Positions 5,689-61,261 of a stretch of DNA of 64,000 bases are shown here, one piece after another; the stretch's first letter is position 1, and each line of letters starts with the position of its first letter. The stretch comes from Sphingobacteriales bacterium 50-39 (lineage in GTDB: Bacteria > Bacteroidota > Bacteroidia > Chitinophagales > Chitinophagaceae). A program made the translations under genes and the position numbers. The notes under the pieces were generated by a model. It saw only the letters and a program-made list of their open reading frames with translations, had not been told where the DNA came from and ran no database searches. Location: contig MKTZ01000015.1 in the NCBI GenBank assembly GCA_001898505.1, forward strand, positions 558,001 to 622,000, written 5' to 3'.

Positions 5689-5777
5689 TTTGCGGGAATT
5701 GGCCTGACGAAAAAAAATAGTCCAATTCCGCAAATGTCTCATGTCTGTCCTGGCGGACGAACTGCCTGTGGCAGTTC
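5689..5777 (-). repeat. Three-hairpin element, copy 1 (upstream of pepP)
   Basis: Read on the minus strand it runs H3-H2-H1 towards the pepP start 18 nt away. In plus coordinates H1 pairs TTTGCGG(g)AATTGG (5689-5702) with CCAATTCCGCAAA (5722-5734), with one bulged G. H2 is TGTCC/GGACG-type around 5746-5759. H3 pairs GAACTGCC with GGCAGTTC (5759-5777) around loop TGT. The ATGTCTGTCCT core is shared with the other copies. Confidence 0.75.
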
Positions 5778-5858
5778 CGGTCGGAATTATCCGCTTCCGG
5801 CGGTTCCAAAATCTTCGAATCGATTCAACGCCCCGCGTCATTTAGCAAAAACCCTCAA

Positions 5859-8726: not shown

Positions 8727-9731
8727 CTAATAGTAGATCAGCCCTATCGCCTCTTTGGCCAGTTCGACAGTGACGGCAGCGCTGGCCCTTGCCTTGGCAG
8801 CTCCCTGCTCCATCACTTTTTTAAGATAGGAATCATCATTCTGGATCTGTTCGGCCTTCTCCCGTATGGGCGCAATAAAGCTCACCATCCCTTCTGCCAG
8901 CTCGCTTTTCATATCACCATAACGGACAGTGCCCGCCTGGTAATCGGCGTGGAATTTACTCACTACGTCGGGCGTGCATACCAGTTTCAAAAGTTGGAAG
9001 AGGTTCTCTATGGAGGCGGGCATCGGCGCCGCCGGGTCGGCAACGCTCTCGGTCTTTGCTTTTTTGATCTTTTTTCGGATGGTATCGTCATCGTCCGCCA
9101 GGTAGATGGTAGCCATCTGGTTCTCGCTCTTGCTCATTTTCCCTGCTCCATCCAAGCTGGGTACTTTAACCAGCTCCTCGCCAAAATTGAAGGCGAATGG
9201 CTCGGGAAATACCTCACGCTCATAGCGTTTGTTGAACCTACCCGCAAAATCCCGGGCTATCTCGAGGTGCTGTTCCTGGTCCTTGCCGACGGGCACCAGT
9301 GTGGCGCGGTGCAGAAGAATATCAGCAGCCATCAATACGGGGTAGGTCAACAGACCGGCATTTACGTTGTTGGGCTGCAAGCGTACTTTATCCTTAAAGG
9401 TAGGGGTCTTTTCCAGCTCGCCCTTGTAAGCCAGCATATTGAGGAAAAGGTACAGTTCCGACGTCTCGGGTACATGGCTTTGGCAATAAAGGGCTACCTT
9501 ATCCGGGTCCAGTCCGCTGGCGATATTTTCCGCCAATACCCTCCGCACGTGCTGCTTCAGCCCCTTAGTTTCGTTCAATGTAGTCAATGCATGCAAGTCC
9601 GCCACCATGAAATAACAGGTATACGCATCTTGCATCCGAACATAATTCCGCAGCGCCCCGAAATAATTACCCAGGTGCAGAAACCCGGTGGGCCGGATCC
9701 CACTCATGACAATATCTTTCTTTTTCTCCAT
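8727..9731 (-). CDS. trpS: Tryptophan-tRNA ligase
   Basis: 334 residues, normal for bacterial TrpS. The class I signature appears as PTGFLHLGNYFG (residues about 11-22), and KMSKS lies near 196-200. Residues in LMAADILLHRA and the VGKDQEQHLE segment line the active site. It charges tRNA-Trp. The start codon is only 7 nt from hairpin H1 of a three-hairpin element (9739-9820), so the leader of this mRNA is probably structured. It is divergent from gatC. Confidence 0.97.
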   Translation of the reverse strand: MEKKKDIVMSGIRPTGFLHLGNYFGALRNYVRMQDAYTCYFMVADLHALTTLNETKGLKQHVRRVLAENIASGLDPDKVALYCQSHVPETSELYLFLNMLAYKGELEKTPTFKDKVRLQPNNVNAGLLTYPVLMAADILLHRATLVPVGKDQEQHLEIARDFAGRFNKRYEREVFPEPFAFNFGEELVKVPSLDGAGKMSKSENQMATIYLADDDDTIRKKIKKAKTESVADPAAPMPASIENLFQLLKLVCTPDVVSKFHADYQAGTVRYGDMKSELAEGMVSFIAPIREKAEQIQNDDSYLKKVMEQGAAKARASAAVTVELAKEAIGLIYY

Positions 9732-9738
9732 GGTATGT

Positions 9739-9820
9739 GCCGTCGACGCGCTTTTAGGAAAATTATCGCATCGCCGGCAAAAGTCTAATGTCTGTCCTGT
9801 CGGACGAAGTCTCCTTCGTC
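9739..9820 (-). repeat. Three-hairpin element, copy 2 (upstream of trpS)
   Basis: Read on the minus strand towards trpS. H3 pairs GACGAAG with CTTCGTC (9803-9820, loop TCTC). H2 pairs GTCC with GGAC (9794-9805). H1 is imperfect, GCCGTCGACGCGC (9739-9751) with TCGCATCGCCGGC (9766-9778). A 23-nt run at 9783-9805 is identical to 56863-56885 in copy 4. H1 ends 7 nt before the trpS start codon. Confidence 0.7.
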
Positions 9821-9896
9821 GACTTGAAGGCGCGAAGATAACCCCTCTCTGCCGTCCGTCAAAACTTACCAGGCCGGCCCGTCCTCATTCAACCAG

Positions 9897-9982
9897 AACG
9901 AGCCGGAGGCTCGTTATCCGAAGGACAGTCGTTAGATCTTTCCGGAAAACGGGCTACATTTCCCGGAGGCCCGTTTTTCGGA
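9897..9982 (+). repeat. Three-hairpin element, copy 3 (upstream of gatC)
   Basis: Read on the plus strand towards gatC. H3 pairs AACGAGCC with GGCTCGTT (loop GGA, 9897-9915). H2 is at about 9917-9925. H1 is a 14-bp stem, TCCGGAAAACGGGC (9941-9954) with GCCCGTTTTTCGGA (9969-9982), with one G-T pair. The whole unit aligns with the reverse complement of copy 5 (60530-60610) over about 85 nt. H1 ends 35 nt before gatC. Confidence 0.8.
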
Positions 9983-10003
9983 CATTAATAAACAGTATTT
10001 TTG
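9974..10003 (+). promoter_or_regulatory. Probable promoter of gatC
   Basis: The -7 box TATTTTTG (9996-10003) fits TAnnTTTG. At the expected 19-nt distance there is TTT instead of TTG (9974-9976), and this lies inside the 3' arm of hairpin H1. The leader to the ATG at 10018 would be about 8 nt. Confidence 0.55.
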
Positions 10004-10017
10004 TCTAAACACCTTGC

Positions 10018-10311
10018 ATGGAAGTCAACGACGCCCTCATCGACAATCTATCTAACCTGGCCAGGCTGGAATTCAGCGCCGAGGAAAAGGAGGGTATAAA
10101 AAAAGACCTGCGCCGGATGATCGAATTCGTAGAAAAGCTGGGCGAGCTGGATACTACCGGCGTTGAGCCATTATTGCATATGAGCCCCTCTATCAATGTT
10201 TTACGCGATGATATCCCTCAGGGCTCCGTCACAAGGGAACAAGCTCTCTCCAACGCACCCGCTACAGATGGCACTTATTTTAAGGTACCGAAAGTGATCC
10301 GTAAAATATGA
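10018..10311 (+). CDS. gatC: Aspartyl/glutamyl-tRNA amidotransferase subunit C
   Basis: 97 residues, the usual GatC size. It opens with the typical [18 protein letters not shown] stretch, then [23 protein letters not shown] and the C-terminal FKVPKVI. GatC is the small subunit that holds GatA and GatB together in the enzyme converting Glu-tRNA-Gln and Asp-tRNA-Asn to the amide forms. gatA and gatB are not in the window. Its stop overlaps the start of the following ABC ATPase gene (ATGA), so the two are translationally coupled. Confidence 0.95.
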
Positions 10312-56795: not shown

Positions 56796-56815
56796 ACTGC
56801 TCGCGTTGTGTTAGA

Positions 56816-56904
56816 TTCGAAAAACGCGTTCCCAGCAAAATATAACGCGCTTTTCCGAATGGGTCTAATGTCTGTCCTGTCGGACAACGAACCCGTGGTT
56901 CGTT
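56816..56904 (-). repeat. Three-hairpin element, copy 4 (upstream of the LOG gene)
   Basis: Read on the minus strand towards the LOG gene. H3 pairs AACGAACC with GGTTCGTT (loop CGT, 56886-56904). H2 pairs TGTCC with GGACA (56873-56886). H1 pairs TTCGAAAAACGCGTT (56816-56830) with AACGCGCTTTTCCGAA (56844-56859), one nucleotide bulged. H1 ends 20 nt before the start codon. A 23-nt run is identical to copy 2. Confidence 0.8.
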
Positions 56905-56940
56905 CTGGGATCTAATCCCTATAACGTACAGTCCGTCAAT

Positions 56941-59948: not shown

Positions 59949-60530
59949 ATGAACCCCAAAGCGGATTTCTTTTTTGATAAAGACACCCAGTGGCAGAAAG
60001 AATATGGGAAATTGAGAACGATCGTTCTCGACTGCGGGCTCACCGAAGAGCTGAAGTGGGGATGTCCCTGTTATCAATTCGAGGGAAGGAACATCGTTCT
60101 TATACATGGATTTAAAGAATACTGCGCACTCCTGTTCTTCAAAGGCGCCCTTCTAAATGATCCCGACGGTATTCTGATCCAACAAACAGAGAACGTGCAG
60201 GCGGCGCGCCAGATACGACTGACCAGCGTCCAGCAGATAGCTAAGATGGAGCGCACGTTGAAAACCTATATTTATGAGGCCATCGAAGTGGAGCGGGCGG
60301 GACTGCAGGTGAAAATGAAAAAGACCACCCAATTCGCAATGCCCGAAGAATTCCAAAACAAATTAGACAAGTCCGCCACCTTGAAGAAGGCCTTTGAAGC
60401 ACTAACGCCGGGCCGGCAAAGAGGATACCTTCTTTACTTCGCCGCTGCCAAACAACCCAAGACCAGGGAGTCGAGGATTGAAAAATACAGGCAGCATATC
60501 CTGAATGGCAAAGGGCTGGAAGATGTCTGA
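59949..60530 (+). CDS. DUF1801/YdeI-family protein
   Basis: 193 residues. The N-terminal DUF1801 domain has WQKEYGKLRTIVLDCGLTEELKWGCPCYQF and LLFFKGALLNDPDGIL. The C-terminal part has FQNKLDKSATLKKAFEALTPGRQRGYLLYFAAAKQPKTRESRIEKY in pieces, the YdeI/OmpD-associated (bacteriocin-protection type) helix bundle. The two-domain form is common in Bacteroidota, and its exact role is unclear. It is the last gene of the arsR cassette. Its stop codon touches hairpin H1 of a three-hairpin element. Confidence 0.92.
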   Translation: MNPKADFFFDKDTQWQKEYGKLRTIVLDCGLTEELKWGCPCYQFEGRNIVLIHGFKEYCALLFFKGALLNDPDGILIQQTENVQAARQIRLTSVQQIAKMERTLKTYIYEAIEVERAGLQVKMKKTTQFAMPEEFQNKLDKSATLKKAFEALTPGRQRGYLLYFAAAKQPKTRESRIEKYRQHILNGKGLEDV

Positions 60531-60610
60531 AAACGGGCCTCTGGAAAATTTAGCCCGTTTTCCAGAAATATCTTATGTCTGTCCTTCGGACAACGGACCT
60601 CCGGCCCGTT
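60530..60610 (-). repeat. Three-hairpin element, copy 5 (between convergent genes)
   Basis: In plus coordinates H1 pairs AAAACGGGC (60530-60538) with GCCCGTTTT (60553-60561). H2 pairs TGTCC with GGACA (60580-60592, loop TTC). H3 pairs AACGGACC with GGCCCGTT (60592-60610, one mismatch). A second hairpin, TCTGGAAAA (60540-60548) with TTTTCCAGA (60558-60566), excludes H1. On the minus strand it aligns with copy 3. Read on the plus strand, H1 plus TTTT could end the arsR-YdeI transcript. Confidence 0.8.
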
Positions 60611-60628
60611 TTTGTGAATAATCCGTTG

Positions 60629-61261
60629 TTACCGCTTGTGCAGGTACACGTTGAACCCAGCCTTGATCACGGGCAGCGGATGGCCATTGAAGTCATTATA
60701 CGGAGAGTTCTTATCCCCCAGCACATCGAACATAAGGGAAATATAAAAGCCGCCCTCCCCGATGACCCGTTGTCCATAACCCACGCCCAACAGCAGGCTG
60801 GCGGCGCTGGTATTGAACGTATACGATGCACCACCTGACCCTGGATTCATATCTTTTTGATTCTGGCTGATCCAATTGTATTCCGGCTGTGCCGCAAAAA
60901 AGAGGAAAGGCAGCGGATAAGCCCTTCCAAATACCCCACCGCCATAATTGAAGGTCCTGTACCGGATATTGTTATCATAATACGGATCGGCCCGTACGGA
61001 ATTGTAGTTGAAGTTGACGACGACGCCGGCATCCAGCCAGTTGTTGAGCGAATATCCCATCTCGGGGCTTACCCCCACATTGAATTGATAGGAGCCCAGA
61101 CCCAATGCCAGGCTACCTCCCAAAAAAAGATTCTCTTTCTGCAATCCGCCTCCGTTGGCGGCATCCGAATAGGTATATACACGTTGTGGCATACGTTCCT
61201 GCGCCCCGGCGCCCAGTGCTGCGATCAGGCAACATCCTGCGAATAAGATCTTTTTTAACAT
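60629..61261 (-). CDS. Outer-membrane beta-barrel protein
   Basis: 210 residues with a signal peptide ending GAGAQ (about residue 20). Alternating strands (NLFLGGSLALGLGSYQFNVGVSPEMGYSLNN, AGVVVNFNYNSV) and a C-terminus ending in a strand (VIKAGFNVYLHKR) suggest an 8-strand barrel. It resembles small Bacteroidota barrels of unknown function, some of which carry misleading enzyme names in databases. The frameshifted oxidase gene lies 9 nt upstream. Confidence 0.75.
   Translation of the reverse strand: MLKKILFAGCCLIAALGAGAQERMPQRVYTYSDAANGGGLQKENLFLGGSLALGLGSYQFNVGVSPEMGYSLNNWLDAGVVVNFNYNSVRADPYYDNNIRYRTFNYGGGVFGRAYPLPFLFFAAQPEYNWISQNQKDMNPGSGGASYTFNTSAASLLLGVGYGQRVIGEGGFYISLMFDVLGDKNSPYNDFNGHPLPVIKAGFNVYLHKR

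Follow-up and report, generated by a model that had tools for sequence, protein, structure and literature searches.

What are the short hairpin-rich units that recur between the genes of this locus, and are they mobile DNA or leaders of the genes beside them? The stretch of DNA analysed, 64,000 nucleotides long and here called the window (G000:C15:558001-622000), belongs to a genome related to Puia (G000, the source genome; 7.9 Mb in 27 contigs). According to the original prediction, five intergenic units of the window share one plan of three hairpins (H1, H2 and H3) with compensated changes in the arms, and they could be either a REP/MITE-like mobile repeat or a structured leader used by many genes.

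Five units in the window

All five units proved to be real. A covariance model, R1, was built from 43 copies, namely copy 3 of the window and 42 of the 73 matches to a core pattern in the source genome (TGTCTGTCCN{2,5}GGAC; 6 matches for the reversed control), chosen for their H1 stem. With filters off, R1 gave the five units 61-89 bits in the window and the next best place 16.7 bits; the five scores are not independent, since these units are among, or close to, the training copies. The units, with the parts of the most decayed one, are as follows.

5690-5782, plus strand: copy 1, R1 score 77 bits
9737-9822, plus strand: copy 2, 61 bits, the most decayed of the five, with a weak H3
9738-9779, plus strand: H1 of copy 2, arms 9738-9750 and 9767-9779
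9794-9805, plus strand: H2 of copy 2, GTCC-TGTC-GGAC
9892-9983, minus strand: copy 3, 89 bits, a full element, convergent with copy 2
56815-56909, plus strand: copy 4, 73 bits
60525-60615, plus strand: copy 5, 86 bits

The predicted 23-nt identity between 9783-9805 and 56863-56885 was seen directly in the sequence, and copy 3 is indeed in the opposite orientation, on the minus strand. The plan given for H2 was correct only in part: the hairpin is present, but it has the form GTCC-loop-GGAC and the last A of the predicted GGACA is not constant. Rfam 15 had no match in the window at the gathering threshold.

Copy 1 lies directly upstream of, and antisense to, an M24 aminopeptidase-type gene (minus strand, 4381 to approximately 5670; PF00557/PF05195), the start of which was put where similarity to relatives ends. 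Copy 2 and the start codon of a tRNA synthetase gene of class I, W/Y type (8727-9731, minus strand; PF00579), are 5 nt apart, and the H1 end of copy 3 faces gatC (10018-10311, plus strand; GatC PF02686). Copy 4 sits between two minus-strand genes, of the lysine-decarboxylase-like family and for an SSF symporter, and copy 5, between convergent genes, begins at the stop codon of 59949-60530 (plus strand).

Conservation of the fold

Among the 43 aligned copies, standard pairs made up 93.1% of the 1031 pair cells (H1 12 bp, H2 4 bp, H3 8 bp) and double changes were present in 18 of the 24 pairs; neither figure was reached by any of 500 shuffles. The covariation score was 0.492, against 0.162 in shuffled alignments, and again none of 500 shuffles was as high. 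Structures slid along the same alignment, used as a control, were 25-52% paired. H1 and H3 covaried strongly, bearing out the compensated arm changes, and an absence of covariation is excluded; the choice of copies by their H1 stem favours H1 in this test. H2 hardly varied among these copies of the source genome. In an alignment of 34 matches from relatives together with G030, G096, G175 and G262, which was aligned by the model and hence leans to the structure, 22 of the 24 pairs had double changes (covariation as high in 0/500 shuffles), and there H2 covaried as well, as GTCC/GCCC/GGCC around a TTC loop. The family is a real one of structure-conserved DNA repeats of the REP/MITE kind, with an unusual three-hairpin, partly nested form. 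Its description was not recognised in the literature searched, which was mostly that outside subscription.

Anatomy and variants

The unit is approximately 92 nt long and has a fixed order on the element strand: GT-H1-(CTAATGTCT)-H2-H3-CTGR. The left junction, directly before GT[GC]C and H1, favours an A/T-rich WAAT, and the 33 copies of the source genome that passed a length and stem filter had no C at -4 to -2 of the left flank; the right flank of these 33 showed no consensus. Most aligned copies have GTGC or GTCC at the foot of H1; the REP foot GT[AG]G was not encountered. The H1 stem has 12-13 bp and a loop that ends in a AAATTTAGC- or AAAATAGC-like sequence, and the linker from its second arm to H2 ends in CTAATGTCT. 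H2 consists of 4 bp (GTCC-TTC-GGAC) and is directly joined by H3, which has 8 bp and a 3-nt loop and is followed by the CTGR end. The two ends, GT[GC]C... and ...CTGR, do not complement each other, so that the terminal inverted repeats of a classical MITE are lacking.

Several variants were found. Some family copies have H2 and H3 without a convincing H1; locus L019 is an H1 deletion, the full copy being present at the same locus in G028 (L465). In about 20 copies the H2 domain is longer and nested, approximately 55-125 nt being added on a recurring CC-TTCG-[hairpin]-CTC-GG pattern. The start of this domain, GGCCTTCGTCGGA, occurred at 22 distinct places in the loci examined, 21 of them beside an H2/H3 part (the exception is L011). 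In most copies the long domain replaces H2; in five (L021, L036, L042, L305 and L331) it stands before a short H2-like core that was retained. At L301, L302, L312, L315, L319 and L331 of the source genome the H2 domain was very long, with hairpins inside hairpin loops and the CC-TTCG-...-CTC-GG pattern repeated. Head-to-tail arrays with a spacing of 91-92 nt were found in the MAG LS_FP_2_bin.143 (L097 1-300 and L080 6660-6929).

Two further forms were observed. Loci L034 and L067 of the source genome have another upstream palindrome (GTGCCTGCGGCAC / CGGACCTGGCGGTCCG) followed by CTTTTAC-CGGAC and may represent another subfamily. Loci L166-L178 of genome G096 (g65), which has no Y1_Tnp match at E<=0.1, form a GC-rich subfamily with GTTGCGGCGGCGG arms.

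Copy number and distribution

A search of the source genome with R1, in which 150 of 2722 first-look candidates were scored, gave at least 151 matches (E<=0.01). In a few cases two matches are pieces of one long copy. Further copies thus exist beyond those predicted. R1 matches were present in 15 of 33 congeneric genomes, including Puia dinghuensis; the 18 without any served as a negative control. The run on the wider family used stricter filters and few candidates per genome, and found matches in 5 of 294 genomes: the source genome, G030 of the same genus, G096 and G175 of genus g65, and G262 with a weak single match (28 bits). The exact core was found in 37 stretches of GTDB genomes, their sources being Puia dinghuensis and MAGs that carry the label Chitinophagaceae, Chitinophagales, Bacteroidetes or Puia dinghuensis. 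The element-bearing genomes were compatible with one clade (weak support, 42/45) in a tree built on a 222-aa protein, for which 25 of the 33 genomes supplied sequences. Exact searches with two core patterns gave no match in viral contigs, and blastn with one unit gave none in plasmids; no phage or plasmid carrier was therefore found there.

Turnover of insertion sites

Orthologous loci were read for copies 1-4. At the site of copy 1, none of 11 orthologous loci with both flanks had an R1 match, and the gap was longer in G022 and G001 than in the source genome; at the site of copy 3, none of 14 had a match (two loci in each set came from element-less genomes). The site of copy 2 holds, in G022, a matching copy placed and oriented alike and, in G028, a remnant of H3, which shows that copy 2 is old. 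Four loci kept both flanks of copy 4: those of G028, G030 and G031 were without an element, and that of G017 held one on the opposite strand. At this empty site, the one clear case, no target duplication was seen by eye. For copy 5 no fetched locus kept both flanks together; the flanks (window 60515-60635) lie at different places in G017, G028 and G001, so that synteny is broken at the element.

Among the 49 distinct matches in G017 and G028, four share both flanks with a match in the source genome (L465; L445, which is on the opposite strand; L450, whose H1 differs; and L461). The elements of L021 and L445 share a locus; they are on opposite strands and show no alignment. No two dispersed full-length copies of the source genome were identical, the closest pair of the 85 compared having 94.6% identity; insertion is therefore not very recent, and recent jumps are not supported. 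That insertion sites turn over between congeneric species, on an evolutionary scale, is well supported. Some of the absences at orthologous sites could be losses, given the age of copy 2 and the deleted H1 of L019.

Gene context and orientation

The context of 142 matches in the source genome was determined with our own ORF scoring, after 12 opposite-strand matches on the same palindromes had been dropped (one overlapping match was likewise dropped from the G017/G028 set). Intergenic matches numbered 108, while 33 overlapped an ORF by more than 30% and one lay at an edge; 108 of the 141 placed matches were thus intergenic, as predicted, and some of the overlaps arise from starts called too far upstream, as with copy 1. 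Random 92-mers from the same loci were intergenic in 586 of 4000 cases and overlapped in 3414.

The 108 intergenic copies lay between divergent genes (38), in tandem pairs as antisense (44) or sense (16), and between convergent genes (10). The antisense to sense ratio in tandem pairs was 44:16 in the source genome (p 0.0004), 15:9 in G017/G028 and 23:8 elsewhere, 82 to 33 when pooled. H1 faced a start codon in 82/108 copies of the source genome (p 6e-8), 23/34 in G017/G028 (p 0.06) and 37/54 in the others (p 0.009), at median distances of 40, 54 and 27 nt, respectively, and often within 50 nt. The H3 side of the 108 copies had no start-codon bias (54:54). This orientation bias may reflect a target preference or a leader function; orientation to genes in the source genome was biased, not fixed as in a cis-regulatory RNA leader. 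Left flanks contained 19 matches to a TAnnTTTG promoter in 210 flanks, against 5.5 expected from shuffles, 10 of the 19 within 10 nt of the element; promoters next to H1 are suggestive only. A terminator role was rejected: H3 is not followed by a constant T run, and only 10 of the 108 copies lie between convergent genes.

How the arms change

For a census of base pairs, 214 distinct model-aligned rows were kept by a pairing filter from five alignments (58/78, 53/78, 46/49, 29/30 and 28/35). Their 5034 pair cells, read on the element strand, comprised 4706 Watson-Crick, 61 G-U, 115 A-C and 152 other combinations. G-U was rarer than A-C (p 6e-5, a figure that is only a guide, the rows being related), and a hand-built set, A1, pointed in the same direction (17 G-U and 24 A-C). 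An RNA folded from the sense strand would be expected to show the opposite, G-U above A-C, so nothing here points to a sense-strand RNA.

One locus, L287 in the source genome and L461 in G028, has flanks that can be aligned on both sides of the element. Between the two copies, three pairs of H1, one of H2 and one of H3 were changed on both sides and were still paired, and two pairs of H3 were changed on one side. The double changes indicate that both arms of a stem are altered jointly in situ, whether through selection or through template switching; less probably, an independent insertion hit the same spot. These repeats are a clean natural case of a fold that is kept under changing stem sequence, as seen within a genome, between genera and at one locus. 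Through them one can test what lies behind compensatory change in DNA hairpins, selection by an enzyme that reads structure or mutation by template switching.

A pair of RAYT-like genes

A search of the source genome with PF01797 gave two places with Y1_Tnp.

L069 779-2040 (G000:C11): RAYT-like pair of adjacent genes, of 178 aa (without HUH) and 198 aa (with HUH)
L068 1477-1905 (G000:C25): second Y1_Tnp gene, by eye between DAHP synthase and 3-dehydroquinate synthase-like genes

At E<=1e-80 the congeners with the 178-aa protein are exactly the 15 element-bearing ones among the 33; two others have distant matches only (best 5e-27). The 198-aa gene adjoins that of the 178-aa protein in all 15. 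Both proteins match NCBIfam NF047646, the REP-associated tyrosine transposase, with 53 and 65 bits, short of its cut-off of 80. In all 15 bearing congeners the 198-aa protein has kept both HUH histidines, and its catalytic tyrosine is replaced (by His in 12, Ser in two and Glu in one); HUH and a catalytic tyrosine were thus united in neither protein of the pair in any of the 15 bearing genomes of the Puia genus. Nine homologues from g71 have kept the tyrosine, and six from g3 have His; R1 matched none of the searched genomes of the latter six. Matches to the 198-aa protein were found in 243 of 394 family genomes, against 5 of 294 for R1. In the element-bearing G096 and G175, searches with PF01797 and with profile A6 were negative at E<=0.1. 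A single element was found in 17 loci, 57.6 kb in all, around RAYT-type genes (the pair in 15 genomes, with one genome represented twice, and L068 of the source genome), so elements do not flank the pair. Similar sequence downstream of the pair in g71, seen by eye, suggests an old, vertically kept locus.

As an active mobiliser the pair was rejected: the tyrosine is missing, flanking elements are lacking, and G096 and G175 are without it. The pair, apparently without nuclease chemistry, is retained as a candidate partner of the elements. The second gene, L068, has by eye an F where the Y motif of subclass 1.2 is expected; it was rejected as mobiliser on this ground and because the element-less G023 and G032 contain full-length Y1_Tnp matches over the same profile range. 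R1 found nothing convincing (best 15 bits) in 28 further RAYT-type loci, 26 from other genera and two from element-less congeners. No transposase was found linked to the elements. From this analysis the two conserved but diverged RAYT proteins emerge as a candidate host system of Chitinophagaceae that would bind DNA structures.

Possible explanations

We favour, with a probability of about 0.52, the explanation that the units are a non-autonomous mobile DNA repeat of approximately 92 nt, defined by its structure and acting as single-stranded DNA. When the DNA is single-stranded, as in the lagging-strand template, the hairpins would fold, and an enzyme acting in trans, of the HUH/Y1 type or similar, would recognise their shape and a few constant unpaired bases (the AAATTTAGC-like sequence in the H1 loop, CTAATG and the TTC loop). 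Its cuts would fall at the H1 foot and at the CTGR end, and the strand would be inserted beside an A/T-rich tetranucleotide. The arms would stay complementary in that only good folds are propagated, in that template switching copies one arm onto the other, or both. Of the predicted REP/MITE-like mobile repeat, the kind is retained: the copies are many, mostly intergenic and patchy, with fixed ends and sites that turn over. It is not the usual REP, there being no GT[AG]G foot and no flanked RAYT gene, nor a classical MITE, as its ends are not complementary; at the one empty site examined by eye no duplication was seen. The orientation bias counts against mobility, for simple insertion need not produce it, and the in-place changes of the arms could reflect selection on a function instead.

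The predicted leader for many genes, read from the element strand, is not supported: orientation to genes is mixed, and G-U is rarer than A-C. Read from the reverse complement, a structured 5' leader, or an upstream terminator or insulator RNA, of many genes agrees with the antisense excess in all three sets of tandem pairs, with the start codons faced by H1 and with wobble pairs that outnumber A-C mismatches on that strand (115 to 61), and is nevertheless unlikely. The start-codon effect comes partly from the excess of divergent over convergent gaps (38 to 10), with 54:54 on the H3 side; wobble pairs fill only 1.2% of the cells on one strand and 2.3% on the other, which we regard as low for structured RNA; and the sites turn over between species, next to genes that are unrelated in a window devoid of Rfam matches. 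It is most improbable that the repeat moves through an RNA intermediate, retro-copied by a reverse transcriptase in trans, and not as single-stranded DNA. Small structure-conserved units are compatible with a copied RNA and the empty site of copy 4 showed no target duplication, but the element strand has no G-U excess, and neither poly-A nor another mark of RNA copying was noticed in the flanks.

The elements may instead be binding sites for the RAYT-like pair, domesticated and nuclease-dead, in chromosome structure, replication or regulation, their spread being old and now inactive. The exact coincidence of the pair with elements in the congeners, its resemblance to REP-associated tyrosine transposases below the cut-off and the kept histidines beside the lost tyrosine all point that way. 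We doubt this explanation, because the bearing genomes fit a single clade, weakly supported (42/45), so that the coincidence may be shared ancestry; G096 and G175 bear elements without a match to the pair; the 198-aa protein is far more widespread than R1 matches; the tyrosine is also lost, to His, in the six g3 homologues whose searched genomes R1 did not match; and the 17 loci held a single element. Covariation of the arms might also be purely mutational, template switching perfecting imperfect palindromes with no selection on the fold. The matched changes of L287/L461 and the low wobble content are in line with this, and in PMC8794818 template switching in replication is proposed as a mechanism for RNA genes. 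It leaves the fixed order of three hairpins, the constant loops and linker and the copy number unexplained, would act only beside another process, and as the explanation is very unlikely. Equally little credence is given to the most far-reaching reading, a class of shape-defined mobile DNA with a nesting middle hairpin that is read by a heterodimer of two diverged RAYTs turned host system: the arms would drift while paired, H2 would grow by the nesting of hairpins in its CC-TTC-GG loop, and the two RAYTs, one without HUH and the other without the tyrosine, would together form a DNA-structure-binding host system.

Comparison with known systems

The repeats resemble REP/REPIN sequences and their RAYT (TnpA_REP) in being short, palindromic, intergenic, non-autonomous, of high copy number and patchy between species, in forming inverted pairs (here copies 2 and 3) and in the RAYT-like pair of the bearing congeners. 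They differ in having three ordered hairpins in 92 nt instead of one palindrome of 20-40 nt, in lacking the GT[AG]G foot and in arms that vary freely. Furthermore, the RAYT genes here are not flanked by elements, the pair is without the catalytic tyrosine, and, unlike in a REPtron, elements also occur where a RAYT is absent (G096 and G175).

Elements of the IS200/IS605 type have hairpins at their ends and insert beside a short flank motif without target duplication. The hairpins, the WAAT left flank of 33 copies and the lack of a visible duplication at the single site of copy 4 may correspond to these features; the repeats differ in having no internal gene, no linked tnpA that could be found, and three adjacent hairpins where those elements have two separated ends. 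BOX elements of Streptococcus pneumoniae (boxA-boxB-boxC) are modular structured intergenic repeats with a variable middle module. The present repeats share this modular build, but their variable middle is the H2 domain, short or nested, and their arms covary.

CGTC-tagged repeats (PMC3733652) are likewise abundant and palindromic, and were reported as apparently without a dedicated transposase, as here; they are palindromes tagged by CGTC and have not the three-hairpin architecture. Multi-hairpin units thought to be mobile are described in mitochondria, the DHE of Allomyces (as cited there, without flanking duplications) and the RHE of sponges, one sponge also having triple-hairpin regions (PMC2800124). 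These are organellar, and in the sponge RHE the helices are conserved and the loops vary, whereas here the loops and linker are conserved and the helices vary.

The nearest described kind, compared by description and not by sequence, are the 'atypical secondary structures' of TnpA_Y1 subclass 2.6 (Bertels group 5) in Bacteroidetes (PMC6006769). Those structures flank the gene and are described as weaker, unlike the present repeats. The same paper gives the subclass the motifs NH[LIV]H, WQ, YIH[QN]NP and SS, which the family of the 198-aa protein resembles, and the two systems further share their occurrence in Bacteroidetes, the lack of GT[AG]G and the presence of copies elsewhere in the genome.
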